DNA from: an uncultured Lachnospiraceae bacterium
GTDB taxonomy: Bacteria > Bacillota > Clostridia > Lachnospirales > Lachnospiraceae
Direction of reading: 5' to 3'
Assembly (NCBI GenBank): GCA_902783305.1
Contig: CACZQU010000223.1
Coordinates: 1-13,269, forward strand
DNA: 13,269 nucleotides
Shown here in pieces: positions 501 to 10,272 of this stretch (position 1 is its first letter; every line of letters begins with the position of its first letter). The translations under genes were made by a program, and so were the position numbers. A model generated the notes under the pieces. That model was not told the DNA's origin. It searched no databases and saw nothing but the letters and a program-made list of their open reading frames with translations.

Positions 501-1886
501 TCAATCCGTACCTGTCCGGCTCTTCCCCTTGAGCAGCATTTCCTGCGTCCGGCGCATCTGCTCCTCCCGGCAGTAATACTCTCTGATCGGGCACCTGGAA
601 AAAGGAGTACATCGGGGCAGGAACGGGCAGTCTGTGCACTTCTGACGCACTTCTCCCACCTCCATATAGGAAGCCAGGATCTTAGGAAGGGTGACGCCGT
701 CCGCGACATTTCCAAAGGAGGTTCCGGGCTCGCAGAAGCTGCAGGCATATAAATCCCCTGTCGGGGCGATGACGACATTTCCCTCCGGGTTATCCGCCAT
801 GCAATGGTTGACGCAGAAGCCCGCAGCGTGCCTGGGCCTTGAAGGCAGAAAGCCATTCTCCCGTATCCACCGGTCTGCCTGCTCCAGCCGCCGCAGCAGC
901 GGCCGGCAGGTGCTGCTTTGAAGCGATGCATGCAAAGGCGCAAAGACCACGGACAGCTCTTCTTTTTTTTCGATGATCCGGCTCAGATCCGCAAGAAATT
1001 CCGGGATGTCATCCATGTTTTCTTCGTCCACATTGCATCGGATATTCACCCGTATTCCCCGCTTCATCAGCCGGTTCACATTTTCCATGACCCGCCGGTA
1101 CGTGTCGTCGTAATGATAATAGTTCTTTCTCCGGAAGTATTCTTCTCCGGCGCAGTCCATGGAAACCTTGACGCTCTTCATGTGCCAGGATCCGGCCATC
1201 CGCTGCGCGGCGGCATCCGTAATCAGGCTTCCGTTTGTCGTCATCACGGACGTAAACGGTACCTTGCCGTTTTCCAGTCCTGCACAGATCCGGTCGATGA
1301 CCCGGGAAGCCAGCAAGGGCTCCCCTCCGAACCATTTCAGGTGAAGCGTCGTATCCTTTCGCCGGCTGGCCAGAAGGAAGGAAATGGTTTTTTCGACGGT
1401 TTTCTCATCCATCCCGGTCCGGGGAAGTCCCTCTTCAAAGCAATAGCTGCATCTGGCGTTGCAGCTCCAGGTCGGCAGGATCGTATATCCCGAATATCCC
1501 GGTTTCCGGGCACAGAGTCTGTGCAGCCGGTACAGATCCAGGTAAAAAGCTGTCTCATCCCTGCTCCCGGGAACCAGGAAATAATTCTGCATCAGGCTGT
1601 ACAGCTCCGGATCCTCCTGAATCTGATCCGCGGTAAACCGGGAATCCGGATGAACGATGATTTCCGGCTCCACGTATTGCAAGGTGAGAGTGTTGTACAG
1701 GCGGCACGCCTTGAGTCCCATCCTCTGCCCCGTTTCCGGTAAGGGGGAAGCAGGCGATGAATCGTCTGCCTTGCCGTCCTCCGACCAGACAATAAACTGC
1801 GACCACCGGTATGACTGTCCCGGGGAAAGGGTCTGCTTTTTCAGCAGCCTTTCCAGGGAAGGAATCCTGGGCCAGATCTCTTTCAT
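501..1886 (-). CDS. Radical SAM/SPASM domain protein, putative peptide maturase
   Basis: This 461-residue enzyme has the radical SAM signature CNARCSYC (Cys142, 146, 149) that holds the 4Fe-4S cluster cleaving S-adenosylmethionine. It is followed by GGEP at 187-190 (SAM binding) and the MTTNGSLIT strand at 215-223. The C-terminal third is a Cys-rich SPASM domain: Cys358, Cys362, GDLYAC with Cys382, then Cys385, 417, 420, 426, 432 and 439. That is enough to hold two auxiliary Fe-S clusters. Residues about 57-125, with LYNTLT, resemble the leader-binding N-terminal region of SPASM peptide maturases. The family installs thioether or C-C crosslinks, or other changes, in small peptides. The nearby 44- and 51-residue peptide genes are the obvious candidate substrates. 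The ATG at 1886 has an AGGGG ribosome site about 8 bases upstream. The gene is preceded by a terminator, so it is probably expressed by read-through. The exact chemistry cannot be told from sequence. Confidence 0.92.
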   Translation of the reverse strand: MKEIWPRIPSLERLLKKQTLSPGQSYRWSQFIVWSEDGKADDSSPASPLPETGQRMGLKACRLYNTLTLQYVEPEIIVHPDSRFTADQIQEDPELYSLMQNYFLVPGSRDETAFYLDLYRLHRLCARKPGYSGYTILPTWSCNARCSYCFEEGLPRTGMDEKTVEKTISFLLASRRKDTTLHLKWFGGEPLLASRVIDRICAGLENGKVPFTSVMTTNGSLITDAAAQRMAGSWHMKSVKVSMDCAGEEYFRRKNYYHYDDTYRRVMENVNRLMKRGIRVNIRCNVDEENMDDIPEFLADLSRIIEKKEELSVVFAPLHASLQSSTCRPLLRRLEQADRWIRENGFLPSRPRHAAGFCVNHCMADNPEGNVVIAPTGDLYACSFCEPGTSFGNVADGVTLPKILASYMEVGEVRQKCTDCPFLPRCTPFSRCPIREYYCREEQMRRTQEMLLKGKSRTGTD

Positions 1887-1933
1887 GACAAATTACCCCT
1901 GTAGATGATTATTGCGTAAACGATTTTCGGGAG

Positions 1934-1978
1934 AAAAAAGGCCGCAGCCCAGGACCATATCAGGTCCTGACTGCGGCC
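1934..1978 (-). terminator. Intrinsic terminator between peptide gene and radical SAM gene
   Basis: On the - strand a GC-rich stem is formed by GGCCGCAGTCAGGACC and GGTCCTGGGCTGCGGCC, with one small internal bulge and a 6-base loop. The + strand positions are 1963-1978 and 1940-1956. It is followed directly by six T residues (complement of 1934-1939). It lies 9 bases after the stop of the 44-residue peptide gene and about 50 bases before the radical SAM start. It should end most transcripts after the peptide genes and let a fraction reach the maturase gene, giving an excess of precursor over enzyme. Confidence 0.9.
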
Positions 1979-1986
1979 GATCCTGA

Positions 1987-2121
1987 TCAGTCGTCGCCGC
2001 CAAACAGATCACTCCTGCCGGCATCCTCGCCCGGTCTTCCGCCGCAGCTGCTGGTCAGAATGATATCCTCGGTATCGATCTGCAGGATTTCCACTGATGG
2101 CTGTTCATATTTTTCTTTCAT
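1987..2121 (-). CDS. Small peptide (44 aa), candidate RiPP precursor
   Basis: A 44-codon gene starts at ATG 2121 after a strong ribosome site, GAGGAGGAATTGAA, and stops with TGA at 1987-1989. The N-terminal half begins MKEKYEQPSVEILQ and continues with TEDIILTSS. The C-terminal half, from Cys26, is CGGRPGEDAG, then RSDLFGGDD, and is rich in Gly and Asp. The Y-x-x-P-x-V pattern recalls the leader motif bound by RRE domains in lasso and related peptides. From memory, short clostridial peptides with a Y-x-x-P start and an E/D-D-x-I-x-T-S segment are common next to modification enzymes, but I cannot name a family. A leader of about 25 residues and a core starting at the single Cys is inference. 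Adjacency to a radical SAM/SPASM gene and the terminator in between support the precursor role. Confidence 0.78.
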   Translation of the reverse strand: MKEKYEQPSVEILQIDTEDIILTSSCGGRPGEDAGRSDLFGGDD

Positions 2122-2160
2122 TTCAATTCCTCCTCATGGATGATTGCAATACCAAAATGC

Positions 2161-2190
2161 CTCCGGCGGATTGTTCCGCGCTTACGATAA
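2161..2190. repeat. Partial copy (C) of the intergenic palindromic element
   Basis: This stretch repeats the core GGATTGTTCCGCGCTT (2168-2183) of the two full elements, with the same small hairpin CGGA-TTGT-TCCG. It lacks the TGACTCC/GGAGTCA outer stem: CCTCC replaces GACTCC on one side, and the other end runs into ACGATAAGTGAT before copy B begins at 2197. It lies directly upstream of the 44-residue peptide gene, in tandem with copy B, and looks like a decayed or truncated copy. Confidence 0.7.
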
Positions 2191-2196
2191 GTGATC

Positions 2197-2246
2197 TGAC
2201 TCCAACGGATTGTTCCGCGCTTTGCGCTCTCACCATCCTGGAGTCA
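2197..2246. repeat. Intergenic palindromic element, copy B
   Basis: The element is bounded by inverted 7-mers, TGACTCC (2197-2203) and GGAGTCA (2240-2246). Inside are two small hairpins, CGGA-TTGT-TCCG and GCGC-TTT-GCGC. It shares the GTTCCGCGCTT core and the outer stem with copy A at 2443-2491. It lies between the stop of the 51-residue peptide gene and the start of the 44-residue one. Confidence 0.8.
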
Positions 2247-2255
2247 TAAGCTCCT

Positions 2256-2411
2256 TCAGTCAAAGATTTCCGGCAGTTCCGTCTCCGGATCGCTTCCGCC
2301 GGAAACGTATCCGGTCTGTTCCTCCGTCAGCTGCTGCTTCTCCTGACCGTTTCCTGCCTGATCCGGTCCTTCGGGTTCCTGGGTAAAACCATTCCAATAA
2401 TTATCGCTCAT
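2256..2411 (-). CDS. Small acidic peptide (51 aa) with a double-glycine-like leader motif
   Basis: The start is ATG 2411, preceded by GGAGAAAG at proper spacing. A longer in-frame start at 2492 lies inside the repeat element, has no ribosome site and is rejected. The protein begins MSDNYWNGFTQEPEG and has a Gln/Glu-rich middle. Residues 28-39 read LTEEQTGYVSGG, which resembles the double-glycine leader of peptides exported and cleaved by peptidase-containing ABC transporters: Val at -4 and Leu at -12 fit, Thr at -7 does not. If cleaved after Gly39 it would leave an acidic 12-mer, SDPETELPEIFD. There is no Cys, so a thioether-forming radical SAM enzyme could not use it in the usual way. No such transporter is in the window. 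It follows the giant surface protein gene by 98 bases and precedes the second peptide gene. The function is unknown. Confidence 0.7.
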   Translation of the reverse strand: MSDNYWNGFTQEPEGPDQAGNGQEKQQLTEEQTGYVSGGSDPETELPEIFD

Positions 2412-2509: not shown

Positions 2510-5500
2510 TCAGCTCTGACGGAAGGCCATGGTCTTCTGATAATAATAGTAAAGCGCCATGACCGAGTCCTTTGCCTCTTTGTTGCCGGCATAGTTTTTG
2601 GAGTTCAGCAGACTCCTGACATAAGCCAGCACGGAAATCTGAATCGTAAAGCTCCCTCCTGCGTTTCCGGTAACGGTGATGGTATCGGCAAGCTGTGATG
2701 CATTGATCCCCTCGATATCCAGCCGGTAGCTTCCATCCACCATTCTGACTGCCCGGAAGGTATTCCCGTTCATCACGGCGGAGGCGCTGAGTGACACATT
2801 GTTCTTCACATTCAGGTAAAGCGTCACCGCCGTCTCCGAGTTCAGCCTGACGCTGAAATACACCTTGCCCAGGCTGGAGGATCCTGCGTCCACAGACAGC
2901 CTGTAATTGTCCACGGCAGCCTTGACCGCATTTTCATCATAGGACGAGGCATAATGGGTCGGCATCGTTGTATAATCCACCCCGTATCTCCACCCGTTGT
3001 AATCCGCCATAAAGGGCTGCGTGAAGTGCCCATAATCCGCCATCGCCCTGACCAGACTGATCGTCGCGGTATTGTACGAGGAGGAATGCAGCTCGAAATA
3101 CCTGATGTACCTGTCCACAGAATACTCCTGCCGGATCGTCTGGCTTCCTCCGTCCCCGTAATGGAAAACAGCCTCGATGGTCTCTGCCATCATGAGCGCA
3201 TCCACATAGACGGTGTAGAGCTTGCGCCCGTCATCGGAATCCCTGGCATCCCGGGTATATACGCGGCTCGAATTGCCATGGACGGTAAAATCCATGTAGC
3301 TTCCCGGACTCTTTTCCGTGTCCTGGAAATCAATGCCAAAGGTAACGCCGATCTGCCCTGTCAGCACCAGAGAGTGGCCTTTGAAAACCGGCTTTCCCTT
3401 CCAGTTTGCGGTTACCGTGAGATCCCGATCTGCCTTGACGGGGGTTCCGGCCGCCTTTTTCCCTTCAACCGTGCTCACCGTCCATCCGTCAAAGGCAAAG
3501 TTCACACGGGTGAAGCCGCATTCCGGAAGCTTGTATTCCTCACCCTTGTCTACATATACCGGGTTCATGGTTCCTTTCGCGTCCTCATGTCCCTTTTCAA
3601 AGGTGATCCTGACCTGCTGCTTCCATTTCGCCTCAGCCGTCGTATTGCCGCTTACGGAAATGGATACCCCTGGTTTTTTCGTGGACCAGTTCACTTCCCA
3701 GCCATCAAACTTATAGCCTGAGCGTGTCCATGGGCAGGAAGGCAGGGTATAGGAGCCGTTTTCGGATTTTTTATGGGGGACGCTATGGCTTTCCGACCTG
3801 CCGTCACCCGATTTCAGCGTCACGGTATAGGGATCCACCGTCTTCATGCTGGTGAAGGTCTGCCCGTTTTTTGTCGCCGTCGCATAGTAGTAATAGGTAT
3901 ACAGGATCAGCGAAGGCGTAGAGACCGTTCCTTCTTCCTTACAGGTATCTCCGCATTGGGGGCAGTTCAGATAGACGCTGGCTTTGGTGTAATTACTGTT
4001 CCATTCCCAGGCCAGCTCCTGGTAGGTATGCTTGCATTTTTTCTTTTCCTGCTCTTCATCCTTGCTGGGATCGCTGTCGCCGCCGTCCAGGCTTGTAGAG
4101 CCCGCTGCTGCGGCTGCTCCGGCCGCTGCTCCTCCGGCCGCGCTTCCGCCAAAGAGGTTAAAGCCGATGTAAGCAAGGCCTCCGATGATTCCTCCGATGA
4201 TCGCTACTCCGGCCAGATCCTTCAGCCAGGTGTTGTCACGCTTGCCTTGATCATTTGCGTTGTTCTTGACCTTGTTGTCTCCTTCAAACTCGACCTTACC
4301 GCCTTTTTCCACATAGATACCGCCGCCCTCGATTCCTGCGGTATTCTTTTCGATCAGAACACCGTTGAGCCGCAGCACCGCATCTATGGAAACATAGCAG
4401 CCTCCGCCTCTTGATTCCGCACGGCCATGGGTGATCCGGCTCTTTGTCTTCGCATCGTCCTCATAGACCTTGCCGCAGATCAAAGCGCGGCTTCCCGGAG
4501 ACAGGAAAATCCCGCCGCCGGTGTTTGCGTGGTTGCCATAAAGGAAGACCTCGGTAAGGGTCAGGGAGGCAGCATTTCCCAGACAGAAGGCTCCGCCGTT
4601 TCCGGTATGGTATCCTCCTGTAATAACGTCCTGAGCTTCGTCGGAGCCAGCGGCTGCCGCCGCATCTTCCCCCAGTTCCTCCAGCCCGGTTTTCACCTTT
4701 CCGCCGCCCGTGACATTCAGCGTCCCCTCCACCAGGAAGACAAAGCCGTCTGCAGCGGCGCTTTCCTGATGGCGGTCCACCACGTATCCGTTCAGGTTCA
4801 GCGAAGAGCTGACTCCGGCCGGAATCGTCATATAGGAATCCGTTTCTCCCGCGGTAATGCTGTTGTACAGATTGACCGTTTCTCCCGCGGCAAGGCGTGT
4901 CGAAACCCCCTCCCAGGTGGAGGTCCATTTCGCCGCAAATACCGTCTGCTCTTCGGTCAGTGTCGCCGTCTCTCCCGGCAGATATGAAGCAGACGCGGTG
5001 TACCAGACAAGCGTCATGCCGTCTTCCGGAGCCTCAAAGCCCTCCACGGTATCGGGAAGAGTATAGCGGATACCGCTCTTCCGCGTCGTTTTTTCTCCTG
5101 TTCCGTTTCCGGGAAGCAGCACAACCGTCCATTTTTCCCCGGTCGTCGTATCCGTATAGGTTTCACCCTCATACTCCGCAGACGCTGTATACAGGATCTC
5201 TTCCTCCTGCTCCTTCCAGGTCACCGGTACGTCCTTCAGCTCATGGGTTTCCCCGCAGATATCGGATCTCACGCACCGAAGGGTCAGGACAGCCGTCGAA
5301 TAATCCTCCGCCCATTCTGTTTTCTCCGGATCCACTTCAAATTCATGGGCATCCGTATATTCGACAAGGTAACGGTTTTCGCCCGTTCCCTGCTCACCGG
5401 CAGGCAGAAGGGAAGCATGCGTCACATAAACCGTCAGTCCTGCCGGTCCTTCCGCATCGCTGTACCCGTCGAAGGCTCCCGGATCGACCGTCACCGGTTT

Positions 5501-8500
5501 TTCCGCTCCCAGGACCAGGCTCTCAAGCGTTGCCCGGTTGTCGGCGAAGGATCTGCTTCCGATCCTTGTCAGATTTTCTGTATTTCCCGTCAGCTCCTTT
5601 ATTCCTGAGCCGGCAAAAGCATTGGCATTCACCGCCCCGATGCTTTCAGAGACAACTACGCCAAAGCCGCTGCTTTGGTAAAACCTGCCGTCCGCGCCCG
5701 CTTCCCCGCTGCCGATTGCCGTGATCTCCACAGCATTACCCGCTTCGTCTGTGTAATACTTCGGAGTCAGGATAACAAAGCCTTCCGGCAAAGCATCCAG
5801 GCCGTACAATGTCGTAAGCGCCGATTCAGCGGGATTCTCCTGCGTACCGGAATTTCCGTCATCCCGGCTGTCAGGCTCCTCCTGCCGCTCACCTGTATCT
5901 TCCCGTTCCTCTGCGTCCCCAGGCTCCTGTGCTTTCTCCCGATCCTCCTCCCGGGATTCATCATTTTCCTCCCCGGAGGTTTCTTCCACGATCTGCATGG
6001 TTTTTTCCGGTCCGGTATACCGGACTGCCTGATTCCCATCGAATTCAAACCAGGAAAAAGCCAGCTCCGCCTGGGTGGCAGGCTCACCTACAGAGCCGTC
6101 CTCCGCTTCCAGGAAGCGGTATAACGTATCTTCGATAACGATCTCGATATGCTCACGGATCCCATAAAGATATCCGCCGTCCTTTGCCGAAATGGCAGGC
6201 TCGGATTCCGGAACCTTTACCCACTCTTCCTCAACGGCAACCGTATCCGTGTACTCCACCGGATCTGTGCCGTCCTCCGGGTTTCTGACCACCTTCGCGG
6301 TAAAGGTAAACGCACCCAGCGTCCCGTCGTAGACGGGACCAGTGATCTCTCCGTCCTCCTCCCACACGACTTCGCCGCAGTCTTTACAGGCCATCCGCGC
6401 GGCTGCCTTGTGATATCCTTCCCAGGTCCAGCTGATCTGTGCATCATGGCTTTCCTTCAAGGCCACAGAGCTGCCCTGCATACAGATGACCTTGTCCGGA
6501 TCTGTCGAATAGAAATGGACTCCCGGGGCTTCATCCGGGTGATACTCCCCATAGCCTGTCACGGCTTCCTCCATATGGGATCCCTTCACGGAAAGCGGCA
6601 GCCGTACGCCGTCCTCCAGCGCTCCGGTCAGATGAAGGACACTGGCGGGATTCCAGAGGCACAGATCCGCAGTTGCGGGATCTGTCGCAGAAGAATTGCC
6701 ATAAATTTCAGGATGTCCGTACAGATTGACGGTCGCGCTGTCTGCCGCCAGTCCGCCACATACCCAGCCCTCATTCATGGCTATCATGCCGCCGCCAAGC
6801 TCCACCGTTCCTCCCGCTGCCACGAGTCCGCCGCCTTCGGCTCCCCTGTCGGTTTTATTTCCGATGATCTCACCGCCGGTGATGCAGACAGATCCTGATT
6901 CCACATAAATTCCGGCACCGTTGTAGCCGGAAGTATTTTCCGAAACCCTTCCGCCGCTCATCTGCAGATTCCCGTTCCGGACAAAGATTCCTCCGCCCCA
7001 TTTCGCGTAGTTTCCGTCAATCCTGCTGCCTCGCAGCTCAGCCGTACCGCCCTCCAGCAGCAGACCGCCGCCCTCGCCGCCGCTGAAATTGTCCGAGATA
7101 CTGCCCCCTGTCATGACAAAGCTGCCGTTATGAAGGTGCACGCCTCCGCCGCCGCGGAAGGACTGGTTGCCGCTGATCTCCCCGCTCTCCAGGGTCAGGC
7201 TGCCTTCCTCTACATAAATGCCTCCGGCTTTTTCTCCGTCACCTCCGGTGATCCTTCCGCCGCCGGCACTGTCCCGGATGACCAGGATACCGTTCTCTAT
7301 ATGGATCGCATGCCCCCAGGAGCTGCCTGAGCTGCCTGCTTTCCGGTTCAGGGTATGACCGTTCAGGTCCAGGACAACCGCTTCACGGTCGGTAAAGGTT
7401 TTGAATTCCAGCGCTTCGTCGCCCTGGCTCTCGTCCGCCTCAAGATCCATATACAGACAGACCAGGTTTTCGTATTCACCGGTTTCCTCGTTGAAAACCC
7501 AGTCTCCAAATCCGTTCAGCGCTCTCTCCAGCTCCTTCCAGGATCGGATAATCCGGGTTCTGGGCTGCTCCTCCTCCGGCGCCAAAACGGTGTCCGTATA
7601 CTCTACGCCGTTAATCTGTGCTGACGCGATATAAACCAGCTTTTCCCCGTTTTCATCGGGAACCGGTCCTCTCACTTCGGCTTCCACCATATCGCTTAAG
7701 GCTCTGCCGCAATGAATGCAGCGCAGGGAGACAGCAGCGCTGGTTGTCTGGTTCCAGCTCCAGACCGCCTCTGCCTCGTGGGTCTCGCGGAAAGCAACCT
7801 CACCGTTTTCCAGACAGGTGATTTTTCCCTCCGGGTTCCGGAAATACAGATCCTCCATTCCCTCCGGATGATACGATGCATATCCTGTGGTGATCACCGG
7901 TGAATGCGTGTCCGATACACTGACCAGATAAGGGGAATCGATGCTCAGACTTCCGGTTACCGTCAGCACGGTATCTTCCTGGTCGAGATAAAAGACATCC
8001 TCCCCGGCCATAACCTTGCTGCCGCCGGGAATGCGGCAGGTTCCTCCCCGAAGACACACACCGCTTCCGTAAGACGCGGTATTCCCGCTGATCATGGTTC
8101 CTTCCAGCAGGCTCACAATCCCATTATCCTGGAAAATCCCGCCGCCGTGAGTTGCCTGGTTATTTTCGATATCGCTTTCTGACGAAGCGAGGTTTCCGCT
8201 CCCCGACACAAAAACACCGCCGCCCCGGATCGCCTGGTTTCCGGATACGGTGACACCTTCCAGAATAACCATGCCGGAGCCGTTGATCCACAACGCCCCG
8301 CCGTAAATGGCGCAGCCTCCGGTAAGCCATCCTTCACCGCCCTGACCCAGGAGCACCAGTGTTCCGTCTTCTACATGAATCACACTTCCGTCTCCAAGCG
8401 GATTAATGGCATCTCCCAGTCCCCGGTCTATCGTGTGACCATTCAGGTCAAGGATTACCGCTCTTTTCGCAAAGGAAAACAAAAGCTCTGAATCGCCGGG

Positions 8501-9247
8501 CTCCGCCGTGATATTTTCTCCCAGCTGAAGGTAATACACTCTCCCCTTGAAGACTGCATCAGAATATGTCCTGGCTTCCCCGTAGCTGTCCGGAGCGTCA
8601 AACGCAGCCTGCAGCTCTGCCCAGGAACGGATCGGAGCAGCCGTCCGGGCACCCACCATCGCCAGCTCATCCTCCGAAGAGCCCTCTCCTGGCTCAGTCT
8701 CGAAAACGAAAGGCACGGATGAATCCTCCCCGGAGTCCGTAAATTCCGTCACCTCATCCAGATCCCCGTTTTCCGGCTGATCTTCATAGACCGTTTCCTC
8801 TGCTTCCGGGCTGGCCCCATCCGGCCCGGGATCCTCATCATCTGCTGTCTCTTCATATGGAGTCTGGTCCGGATCCGTTACAGAAGGATCTTCGTATACC
8901 GTCTCCTCCGCCTGTGAGGCTCCCGGAACTTCCTCCGGGATCCCCTCTTCCGGGATCTCCGGTTCAACGTATTCTGTTTCTTCTGTTTCAGGGGGATTCT
9001 CTCCTTCAGTGACGTATTCCGGTTTCTCCGGAAGCTCCTGTGAATCTCCTTCTGTCTGCATTTCCGGGTCCACCGAACCCCATTCGTCATCTATGCCGGC
9101 CGGCTCTTCTGTCACGTATTCCAGCGACTGGAAATCCTCCGCAGATACGGGGATCGTCGTTGTATTGGCAATCAGTGCCGCAGACAGCACAACGGACAGA
9201 GCCTGCCGGATCATCTGTAATGATTTTTTCAACTTCTTCTTTACCAT
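2510..9247 (-). CDS. Giant secreted beta-helix/InlB-repeat surface protein (2245 aa)
   Basis: The start ATG 9247 follows AAAGGTAAAGG. Residues 1-36 are a Sec signal peptide, likely cut after VSA36. Residues 37-200 are an acidic, Pro-rich stalk with repeats such as EETVYED (115-120, 150-156). Three right-handed beta-helix-like blocks follow: about 205-500, 567-940 and 1443-1665. They carry LDLNGHT-type strands and many GGGI-V and SGN turns. Four modules with a W/aromatic strand and a Cys pair occur at Cys510/513, 954/957, 1325/1331 and 1762/1765, most ending in Y-T-D-T. A BspA-like Leu-rich segment spans about 1180-1265. InlB-like repeats lie at about 1370-1441, 1807-1878 and 1879-1951. The C-terminal domain (about 1954-2245) is a beta-rich module that I recall from other Lachnospiraceae surface proteins. 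A hydrophobic Gly/Ala helix (1678-1701) interrupts the protein. No LPxTG or other C-terminal anchor is seen. A cell-surface adhesive or glycan-binding role is likely but not shown. Confidence 0.9.
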   Translation of the reverse strand: MVKKKLKKSLQMIRQALSVVLSAALIANTTTIPVSAEDFQSLEYVTEEPAGIDDEWGSVDPEMQTEGDSQELPEKPEYVTEGENPPETEETEYVEPEIPEEGIPEEVPGASQAEETVYEDPSVTDPDQTPYEETADDEDPGPDGASPEAEETVYEDQPENGDLDEVTEFTDSGEDSSVPFVFETEPGEGSSEDELAMVGARTAAPIRSWAELQAAFDAPDSYGEARTYSDAVFKGRVYYLQLGENITAEPGDSELLFSFAKRAVILDLNGHTIDRGLGDAINPLGDGSVIHVEDGTLVLLGQGGEGWLTGGCAIYGGALWINGSGMVILEGVTVSGNQAIRGGGVFVSGSGNLASSESDIENNQATHGGGIFQDNGIVSLLEGTMISGNTASYGSGVCLRGGTCRIPGGSKVMAGEDVFYLDQEDTVLTVTGSLSIDSPYLVSVSDTHSPVITTGYASYHPEGMEDLYFRNPEGKITCLENGEVAFRETHEAEAVWSWNQTTSAAVSLRCIHCGRALSDMVEAEVRGPVPDENGEKLVYIASAQINGVEYTDTVLAPEEEQPRTRIIRSWKELERALNGFGDWVFNEETGEYENLVCLYMDLEADESQGDEALEFKTFTDREAVVLDLNGHTLNRKAGSSGSSWGHAIHIENGILVIRDSAGGGRITGGDGEKAGGIYVEEGSLTLESGEISGNQSFRGGGGVHLHNGSFVMTGGSISDNFSGGEGGGLLLEGGTAELRGSRIDGNYAKWGGGIFVRNGNLQMSGGRVSENTSGYNGAGIYVESGSVCITGGEIIGNKTDRGAEGGGLVAAGGTVELGGGMIAMNEGWVCGGLAADSATVNLYGHPEIYGNSSATDPATADLCLWNPASVLHLTGALEDGVRLPLSVKGSHMEEAVTGYGEYHPDEAPGVHFYSTDPDKVICMQGSSVALKESHDAQISWTWEGYHKAAARMACKDCGEVVWEEDGEITGPVYDGTLGAFTFTAKVVRNPEDGTDPVEYTDTVAVEEEWVKVPESEPAISAKDGGYLYGIREHIEIVIEDTLYRFLEAEDGSVGEPATQAELAFSWFEFDGNQAVRYTGPEKTMQIVEETSGEENDESREEDREKAQEPGDAEEREDTGERQEEPDSRDDGNSGTQENPAESALTTLYGLDALPEGFVILTPKYYTDEAGNAVEITAIGSGEAGADGRFYQSSGFGVVVSESIGAVNANAFAGSGIKELTGNTENLTRIGSRSFADNRATLESLVLGAEKPVTVDPGAFDGYSDAEGPAGLTVYVTHASLLPAGEQGTGENRYLVEYTDAHEFEVDPEKTEWAEDYSTAVLTLRCVRSDICGETHELKDVPVTWKEQEEEILYTASAEYEGETYTDTTTGEKWTVVLLPGNGTGEKTTRKSGIRYTLPDTVEGFEAPEDGMTLVWYTASASYLPGETATLTEEQTVFAAKWTSTWEGVSTRLAAGETVNLYNSITAGETDSYMTIPAGVSSSLNLNGYVVDRHQESAAADGFVFLVEGTLNVTGGGKVKTGLEELGEDAAAAAGSDEAQDVITGGYHTGNGGAFCLGNAASLTLTEVFLYGNHANTGGGIFLSPGSRALICGKVYEDDAKTKSRITHGRAESRGGGCYVSIDAVLRLNGVLIEKNTAGIEGGGIYVEKGGKVEFEGDNKVKNNANDQGKRDNTWLKDLAGVAIIGGIIGGLAYIGFNLFGGSAAGGAAAGAAAAAGSTSLDGGDSDPSKDEEQEKKKCKHTYQELAWEWNSNYTKASVYLNCPQCGDTCKEEGTVSTPSLILYTYYYYATATKNGQTFTSMKTVDPYTVTLKSGDGRSESHSVPHKKSENGSYTLPSCPWTRSGYKFDGWEVNWSTKKPGVSISVSGNTTAEAKWKQQVRITFEKGHEDAKGTMNPVYVDKGEEYKLPECGFTRVNFAFDGWTVSTVEGKKAAGTPVKADRDLTVTANWKGKPVFKGHSLVLTGQIGVTFGIDFQDTEKSPGSYMDFTVHGNSSRVYTRDARDSDDGRKLYTVYVDALMMAETIEAVFHYGDGGSQTIRQEYSVDRYIRYFELHSSSYNTATISLVRAMADYGHFTQPFMADYNGWRYGVDYTTMPTHYASSYDENAVKAAVDNYRLSVDAGSSSLGKVYFSVRLNSETAVTLYLNVKNNVSLSASAVMNGNTFRAVRMVDGSYRLDIEGINASQLADTITVTGNAGGSFTIQISVLAYVRSLLNSKNYAGNKEAKDSVMALYYYYQKTMAFRQS

Positions 9248-9348
9248 TCTGGTTACCTTTACCTTTCAGGCCGTCTGAGACAAGTGGTCTGGTTACCATT
9301 CTGTAATAGTAACATGGTCTGAAACACTCCCGGCGGTTGGATACGGTA

Positions 9349-10128
9349 CTATTTCTGTCTGATATTTTTTGCCCTGCCGCTTCCTTCATCCTGGAAAATC
9401 TGGTCCAGAAGAGTATGATACGCCATGTGCAAAGGTGGTATTGCCGGGGTAATCAGCAGTGATTCCGGCAGCTTCACCCAGGTGAGCAGCGGGAAAAGAC
9501 ACAGATATTTCAGCCTGTATTGCATCCATTCCTGCACCACCCTGGAAGCAGGTATGCTCTTCCCCCGCGGGGCAGGAGTGAGAGATACACCTGGTGTCGG
9601 AGACAGTCCCGGCGTCGGAGTCAATCCCGGTGTCGGAGTCAATCCTCGTACCGGAGCTAATCCCGGTGTCACAGATATTCGCGGTGCCGGGGTGATACTG
9701 ATGACCACTCTCGGCGTAACCGTCGGAGTAGGCCTGATGGTGGTTCTCGAAGAAGAACCGGAGCCGGAGGATACGCCCGACGAGGAGGTGCCTGTGGAAG
9801 GATAACCGGAGCTGTAATTTGAGCTCCCCCCCGAAGTCCCGCCTGAGCTGGTATTCGTGCCTGTGCCGGACGAACCTGAACCGCTCGTACCTGAGGTATT
9901 TCCTCCTGCAGAGCTGCCCTGAGAGCCTGAAGAACCCCCTGTATTGTCATCACCGGATTCCTCCTCATCATCGTAAATCAGCAGTCCGGGAAGTTCATTG
10001 TCATATCGTTCTCCTTCGTATTCCGCTTTTACCGCAAAGCCCGTGTGTATCCCTGACACCAGTCCTGACGCAGGCAGAATAAGTGCCAGAAGCAGGCAGA
10101 TATATTTCCGCTGTTTCAAACGCTTCAA
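9349..10128 (-). CDS. Secreted Ser/Gly/Thr- and Pro-rich protein (259 aa), TTG start
   Basis: The best start is TTG at 10128, 7 bases after AAAGGAGG. It gives a clean signal peptide: MKRLKQRK, a hydrophobic core at residues 9-25, and a likely cut near VKA35. An in-frame ATG at 10215 has no ribosome site and would put 29 unlikely residues before the signal. After an acidic patch (DDEEESGDD, 53-61) comes a low-complexity Ser/Gly/Thr linker (62-128), then Thr-Pro repeats (131-188) built on a TPTPGL unit. The last 60 residues are different: a mildly hydrophobic stretch (206-236) and a charged tail ending NIRQK. No sortase motif is seen. The layout suggests a wall-spanning or O-glycosylatable stalk. 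It lies 101 bases upstream of the giant protein gene and may be co-transcribed with it. I do not recognise a named family. Confidence 0.72.
   Translation of the reverse strand: MKRLKQRKYICLLLALILPASGLVSGIHTGFAVKAEYEGERYDNELPGLLIYDDEEESGDDNTGGSSGSQGSSAGGNTSGTSGSGSSGTGTNTSSGGTSGGSSNYSSGYPSTGTSSSGVSSGSGSSSRTTIRPTPTVTPRVVISITPAPRISVTPGLAPVRGLTPTPGLTPTPGLSPTPGVSLTPAPRGKSIPASRVVQEWMQYRLKYLCLFPLLTWVKLPESLLITPAIPPLHMAYHTLLDQIFQDEGSGRAKNIRQK
9590..9679. repeat. 18-bp tandem repeat coding the Pro-Gly/Thr-Pro stalk
   Basis: Five 18-bp units lie head to tail at 9590, 9608, 9626, 9644 and 9662. The consensus is CCCGGTGTCGGAGTCAAT on the + strand; the last two units are the most diverged. On the coding strand each unit gives six residues of the L-T-P-T-P-G type. 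Unit number is likely to vary between strains by slippage or recombination, changing stalk length. Confidence 0.85.
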
Positions 10129-10159
10129 AGGGGGCCTCCTTTCCGCAGGTTTTGCTGCA

Positions 10160-10194
10160 ATGCTCCACTTGCGGGCAAGCCCGCAGTGAAGCAT
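10160..10194 (-). promoter_or_regulatory. Strong hairpin in the leader of the TTG-start gene
   Basis: Left arm 10160-10176 and right arm 10179-10194 are complementary over about 16 bp, with one G-U pair and one bulged base. In the - strand RNA the top is GCGGGCUUGCCCGC, a very stable CUUG tetraloop. It lies about 100 bases past the GH3 stop and about 23 bases before the AAAGGAGG site of the 259-residue protein. No T run follows on the - strand, so it is not a typical terminator for the GH3 gene. It may protect a processed 5' end or act in the leader. Confidence 0.5.
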
Positions 10195-10272
10195 ACCTTT
10201 TTGCACTGAAGTCATCGATTACTGTCCGGCAGCCGGTATCGTACAAGTTTACGGTTGCAAAGCCCTGCGAAT

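Follow-up and report, generated by a model that had tools for sequence, protein, structure and literature searches.

A 13,269-nucleotide contig of an uncultured Lachnospiraceae bacterium (GCA_902783305.1, CACZQU010000223.1; here "the window") encodes what is probably a compact operon for a ribosomally synthesised and post-translationally modified peptide (RiPP), in which a radical SAM/SPASM enzyme would modify a 44-residue peptide with a YxxP leader, and to which a giant exoprotein gene with its own, separate 51-residue double-glycine peptide is attached. The same explanation, held jointly at the same strength, places the system, as a reduced branch, in a clostridial family often built as clusters for linear polyphosphorylated peptides (LPP) with a radical enzyme added. 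The three genes placed by an initial annotation made from the bare sequence are real, and their coordinates were confirmed; both the giant exoprotein and the LPP kinship had been missed there. The elements of the operon are:

2256..2411, minus strand: 51-residue double-glycine peptide, core SDPETELPEIFD
1987..2121, minus strand: 44-residue YxxP-leader peptide, core SCGGRPGEDAGRSDLFGGDD, the proposed substrate
1934..1978, minus strand: hairpin (1978-1940), then a run of six U (1939-1934), separating the 44-mer and maturase genes
501..1886, minus strand: radical SAM/SPASM maturase, 461 residues, with a predicted N-terminal RRE-like domain

The 44-mer begins its leader with Y5-E-Q-P8 and carries one Cys, C26; the leader spans about residues 1-24 and ends in DIILTS, the border with the core after about residue 24 being a guess. 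That this peptide is the substrate of the enzyme, as the initial annotation proposed, is very likely from gene neighbourhood, the main evidence being that a leader-model search found a YxxP...TS-leader gene on the enzyme's strand, at most 2.5 kb away, in 69 of 82 loci, with near-empty controls. All 91 matches under E 0.5 lie on the enzyme's strand, 74 upstream and 17 downstream. Control loci gave 0/27 (double-glycine), 2/16 (other radical enzymes) and 0/12 (repeat loci); the sixteen omit L031 and L033, already known to hold YxxP-like peptides, whose inclusion would give 4/18, and one of the two positives, L030, contains an enzyme rather closely related to this one (E 5e-60). The 82 loci comprise the window, L002 and L026-L029 from our own searches, and 76 of 77 loci from a genome-collection scan that kept the best 80 of 384 enzyme relatives, L112 having been dropped as it shares a contig with L026; to seed the leader model, 12 peptides were taken from 11 loci, ten among the 82. 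Since loci were found via the enzyme or the giant, these counts are no unbiased census. The 77 scan loci are mostly metagenome-assembled genomes, many labelled as coming from ruminant hosts, with one named strain (Sarcina sp. DSM 11001) and a few labelled as belonging to other phyla. Moreover, a relative in genome G315 of the same genus (locus L026) encodes a 37-residue YxxP peptide, a 58-residue counterpart of the 51-mer and the enzyme in the same order as the window, and for this reason neither small peptide can be regarded as a chance reading frame. Weighing against the assignment are the 13 of 82 enzyme loci without a YxxP peptide inside 2.5 kb (the L028 peptide, 4 kb from its enzyme, falls outside the 69) and the YxxP peptides of genomes G025, G266 and G345, where only partial, weak enzyme matches, and no full-length family enzyme, were found. 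The co-occurrence of peptide and maturase, suggested earlier as a check, has thus come out in favour at most loci and against at these.

In Pfam, the enzyme matches Radical_SAM at 6e-14; its SPASM match, at 0.0032, stays under the cut-off (18.1 versus 21.5 bits). A CxxxCxxC motif (C142/146/149) and seven further Cys (362, 382, 417, 420, 426, 432 and 439) are invariant in 52/52 aligned relatives, and the seven in the SPASM region would suffice for two auxiliary clusters, as had been supposed. The RRE-like N-terminal fold that was also anticipated is predicted at about residues 22-116 of a structural model, with RRE-bearing proteins as its closest matches at low Z; TigE, ThcOx and MccB, among the structural matches, are presumably such proteins, and a Foldseek search with the N-terminal domain alone returned no match. 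This domain may grip the YxxP leader of the 44-mer. In NCBIfam no model reached its cut-off for the window's enzyme. SCIFF, Clo7bot, geopeptide, CefB and TIGR04463 were rejected as family names, all scoring far under cut-off for this enzyme, and the other 51 alignment rows were compared with those models by E-value only. Peptide and enzyme together belong to a family of considerable size in gut Clostridia, and no existing name for it was found. Its member in G315 is 54% identical to the window's enzyme, and these two and the enzyme of Sarcina sp. DSM 11001 form one branch of the tree (support 99/94), the enzyme of genome G316 being placed in another.

The kinship with LPP rests on both leader and gene content. 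According to excerpts of a 2026 Nat Commun paper (PMC13381572), the LPP gene set consists of an HprK-like kinase, a discrete RRE, an SpI-like peptidase, an NTP transferase and an exporter, and the precursors share YxxPxVLxHQxIxFETxxS, with Ser at Y+18. In the present family, Ser stands at Y+18 or Y+19 in 69/90 peptides; the window's 44-mer has Y5, P8 and S24 (Y+19) but not the VLxHQxIxFET remainder. Many loci carry the corresponding genes: among the 82, a PqqD-type RRE occurs in 54, an HprK-like kinase in 30, a SipW-like signal peptidase in 28, a PF14907-type NTP transferase in 19 and an ABC exporter in 18, with all five kinds in 4 loci, four in 10 and none in 21, the window included. The calls come from tblastn with one or two seeds per kind of gene, which makes absences soft, and the identities of kinase and peptidase come from matches under cut-off. 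The family differs from LPP clusters in adding a radical SAM/SPASM enzyme. The main text of PMC13381572 contains no word starting with "radical" or "clostridia", and no report of radical SAM enzymes together with LPP-type clusters was found in the open-access literature. LPP-type clusters, with kinase, RRE and SipW-like peptidase, and modification by radical SAM/SPASM enzymes have so far been described apart; they are thereby linked in one leader family present in many gut Clostridia assemblies, from which a simple rule can be drawn: a YxxP leader, Ser at about Y+19, Cys soon after, and often an acid at Cys+3. The window represents a minimal enzyme-plus-peptide pair. On its contig, tblastn found no HprK-like, RRE, SpI-like peptidase, NTP transferase or exporter match, and none of the five partners lies near any member of its three-member branch (window, G315, DSM 11001), the G315 contig being short. 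The paralogous locus L002 in the window's own genome has HprK-like and PqqD-like genes. As for known users of similar leaders, in lasso peptides a B1 RRE recognises the YxxP leader, whereas here it is a radical enzyme that adjoins the YxxP peptide.

A separate observation concerns five loci (L117, L122, L124, L125 and L129) in which a gene for an STT3/PglB-like oligosaccharyltransferase, called by Pfam in L117 and L124 and by tblastn in the others, lies near the YxxP and radical SAM genes. The YxxP peptide contains an N-x-S/T sequon in 5/5 of these loci versus 12/65 other peptide loci (Fisher p 5.1e-4, uncorrected for relatedness), and N-glycosylation of the peptides at the STT3 loci is possible.

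The chemistry that the enzyme performs on the short core of the 44-mer would most likely be a single thioether from C26 to E32 or D33. The initial annotation had held that a product with one Cys does not fit the many-Cys sactipeptide or SCIFF pattern, and this is borne out across the family, where 27/87 parsed peptides (after removal of identical ones and of three that resisted parsing) have just one Cys past the leader; in addition, the 44-mer is no six-Cys SCIFF precursor, and its enzyme scores 52.7 bits against the 425-bit cut-off of TIGR03974, the model for SCIFF/CteB. The first Cys lies 0-4 residues past the leader Ser in 55/87 peptides. Clustering reduced 89 peptides to 66, of which 59 contain Cys; an acid was counted at Cys+3 62 times versus 23.4 +/- 4.3 in shuffles of the 59 Cys-bearing cores; the excess is smaller when counted per peptide (28/59 versus 19.0 +/- 3.3). 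This pattern fits, by analogy, Cys-to-Asp/Glu thioethers of the PapB kind. PMC9413430 describes for PapB a tolerance of 0-6 residues between Cys and acid. Freyrasin-type and other PapB-like ranthipeptides resemble the present system in having a SPASM maturase and a Cys followed by an acid, but the native motif of PapB is CX3D, which the window's core does not contain, having CX5E/CX6D instead, and in the family it is CX2D/E that is in excess; with the PapB model the window's enzyme scores 91.5 bits, the cut-off being 340. The window's core CGGRPGED, with C26 and then E32 and D33, does not have the family spacing of Cys and acid, so that a single thioether there is an inference. Another modification (a sactionine, a C-C bond or an epimerisation) has somewhat less than an even chance of being the true product: it would agree with that atypical core, with the failure of the enzyme to match any NCBIfam model at cut-off, and with nearest folds that include CteB, TigE and anSME, which we take to be enzymes of differing chemistry, but it would leave aside both the family-wide Cys+3 excess and the closeness of Cys to the leader Ser.

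Returning to the thioether-forming RiPP operon as the preferred account, expression and export may be outlined as follows. The stretch 1915-1990, which contains the hairpin, folds at -34.9 kcal/mol (z -4.15), a value equalled by 0 of 200 shuffles; a scan for consensus terminators did not list the hairpin at 1934..1978. A comparable hairpin occurs in DSM 11001 (z -4.71), with no clear U run. The presence of both suggests attenuation, and the hairpin is likely an attenuator that would keep the message of the peptide above that of the enzyme. Leader removal and export would be supplied from elsewhere in the genome, because the window has no linked peptidase or exporter of the types known from the family.

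The exoprotein gene directly upstream of the peptides, and the part of it shared with relatives, lie as follows:

2510..9247, minus strand: giant exoprotein, 2245 residues, with a signal-like N-terminus and List_Bact repeats
2513..3442, minus strand: shared C-terminal domain of the giant, 310 residues

This C-terminal domain recurs in the genus (G315 52%, G345 38%, G316 37% and, weakly, G352), in 5/64 genus genomes and 8/397 family genomes, the window's own being counted in both, and also in DSM 11001. A YxxP peptide directly follows the giant at seven loci in six genomes, namely the window, G316, DSM 11001, G345, G025 and, twice, G266. Such repeated placement behind giant exoproteins suggests a cell-surface role rather than that of a classic bacteriocin. 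The enzyme adjoins giant and YxxP peptide only in the window, G316 and DSM 11001, the three whose peptides have a Cys after TS; this association (3/3 versus 0/4, p 0.029) comes from seven loci and was noticed afterwards. The G316 enzyme belongs to a different branch of the tree, so the link between giant and enzyme may have arisen more than once. The idea that the giant domain always comes with peptides was rejected: no YxxP match lies by the giants in G315 (contig C144), G352, G285, G007 and G211 or by three matches in G229, in stretches of mostly 1.5 kb on each side, the G240 stretch ending at a contig edge. The domains of G316 and G345 contain an LPEIEG stretch that the window's domain does not have.

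The 51-mer contains LTEEQTGYVSGG, and shares with its G315 counterpart LTEEQ, VxGG and a core DPxTxLPEIFD; over the 11-residue core the two genes show two residue differences and five silent codon differences. The L-T-E-E-Q...V-x-G-G leader end is reminiscent of Nif11/double-glycine peptides, but the core is very short, ending in LPEIFD, and the G315 counterpart matches TIGR03798 weakly (17.1 bits versus a cut-off of 32.3); the window's own 51-mer has no NCBIfam match up to E 1. Family-wide matches of an alignment of the 51-mer look like ordinary double-glycine leaders and were discarded as specific relatives. Similar tails occur elsewhere: two G345 peptides end in LLPEL, and secreted or membrane-anchored proteins end in ILMPEL (G316) and ILLPEIPID (DSM 11001). 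The initial annotation had left the 51-mer as second substrate, helper or unrelated. It is doubtful indeed that it is the true substrate, or one of two, with the LPE[ILV] tail as a maturation site shared by two leader types. A tail [LM]PE[ILV] does end 11/1604 frames on the enzyme's strand versus 1/1270 on the opposite strand and 0/255 at other loci, three of the eleven being YxxP peptides beside family enzymes (L139, L166, L167), and the 51-mer is kept in G315; but two of the eleven (L029 2046-2147, L116 12737-12838) are probably spurious short frames, and the enzyme's leader link is to YxxP. Moreover, G345 has two 51-mer look-alikes and, as far as its 77%-complete assembly goes, no full-length family enzyme, and the gene lists of DSM 11001 and G316 hold enzyme and YxxP peptide with no 51-mer (in G316 without a similarity match either). 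The look-alikes without an enzyme weaken the second-substrate part of that earlier statement; the 51-mer is probably a double-glycine peptide in its own right, belonging to the exoprotein locus.

A broader question is whether the YxxP peptide is mainly a partner of the giant, as helper, signal or LPP-kind phosphopeptide, the radical enzyme being an optional addition. This we regard as rather unlikely, even though the peptides behind the giants of G025, G266 and G345 have no adjacent enzyme, the family's Ser recalls the LPP motif, and the G025 locus runs from HprK-like, PqqD, signal-peptidase-like and NTP transferase genes to giant and YxxP peptide (kinase and peptidase being named from below-cut-off matches). 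Against it, the giant's domain occurs in only 3/82 enzyme loci, so that a giant is absent beside the majority of enzyme-linked YxxP peptides, several giants have no YxxP match beside them, and the window itself has no HprK-like match. Unlikely, to a further degree, is a two-peptide system for the giant, in which the YxxP peptide would be radical-modified and the LPEI-tailed double-glycine peptide left unmodified, both being exported and acting at the cell surface on or with the giant's C-terminal domain. Radical modification would then have been recruited only where the YxxP peptide kept a post-leader Cys, in a branch of LPP-type chemistry employing radical SAM enzymes.

The window takes up the whole of contig C223, from an assembly of 614 contigs that is 82% complete. 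Its other features are:

12390-10273, minus strand: xylosidase-like gene
10215-9349, minus strand: Gly/Ser- and Pro/Thr-rich frame with a signal-like start
2167..2222, minus strand: a palindromic repeat that recurs across the genome, in two copies lying downstream of the 51-mer gene
3-464: AraC-type gene, convergent

The palindromic repeat AAGCGCGGAACARTCCG has 60 occurrences in the assembly, 43 of them exact (control 0), and three of the 60 lie around the 51-mer gene in the window (2167-2183, 2206-2222 and, upstream of the 51-mer gene, 2452-2468), which shows that the contig fits its genome and argues against misbinning. The paralogous locus L002, with YxxP, radical SAM, HprK and PqqD genes, is flanked by two near-identical palindromic repeats of about 71 bases (about 92-162 and 3296-3366). 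The frame 9349-10215 has NELPGLLIYDDEEE after its signal-like N-terminus, a build similar to that of a G345 protein with LPEL and LMPEI. In G315, a short open frame that is cut off (L026 2106-2249) lies downstream of the enzyme gene and has what we take to be a resemblance to the start of a sugar-phosphate isomerase/epimerase. The giant/YxxP/double-glycine locus of G345 (L066) continues with a C11 (clostripain-family) peptidase with a signal-like start (7205-9343) and a further double-glycine-like small protein (9424-9636).
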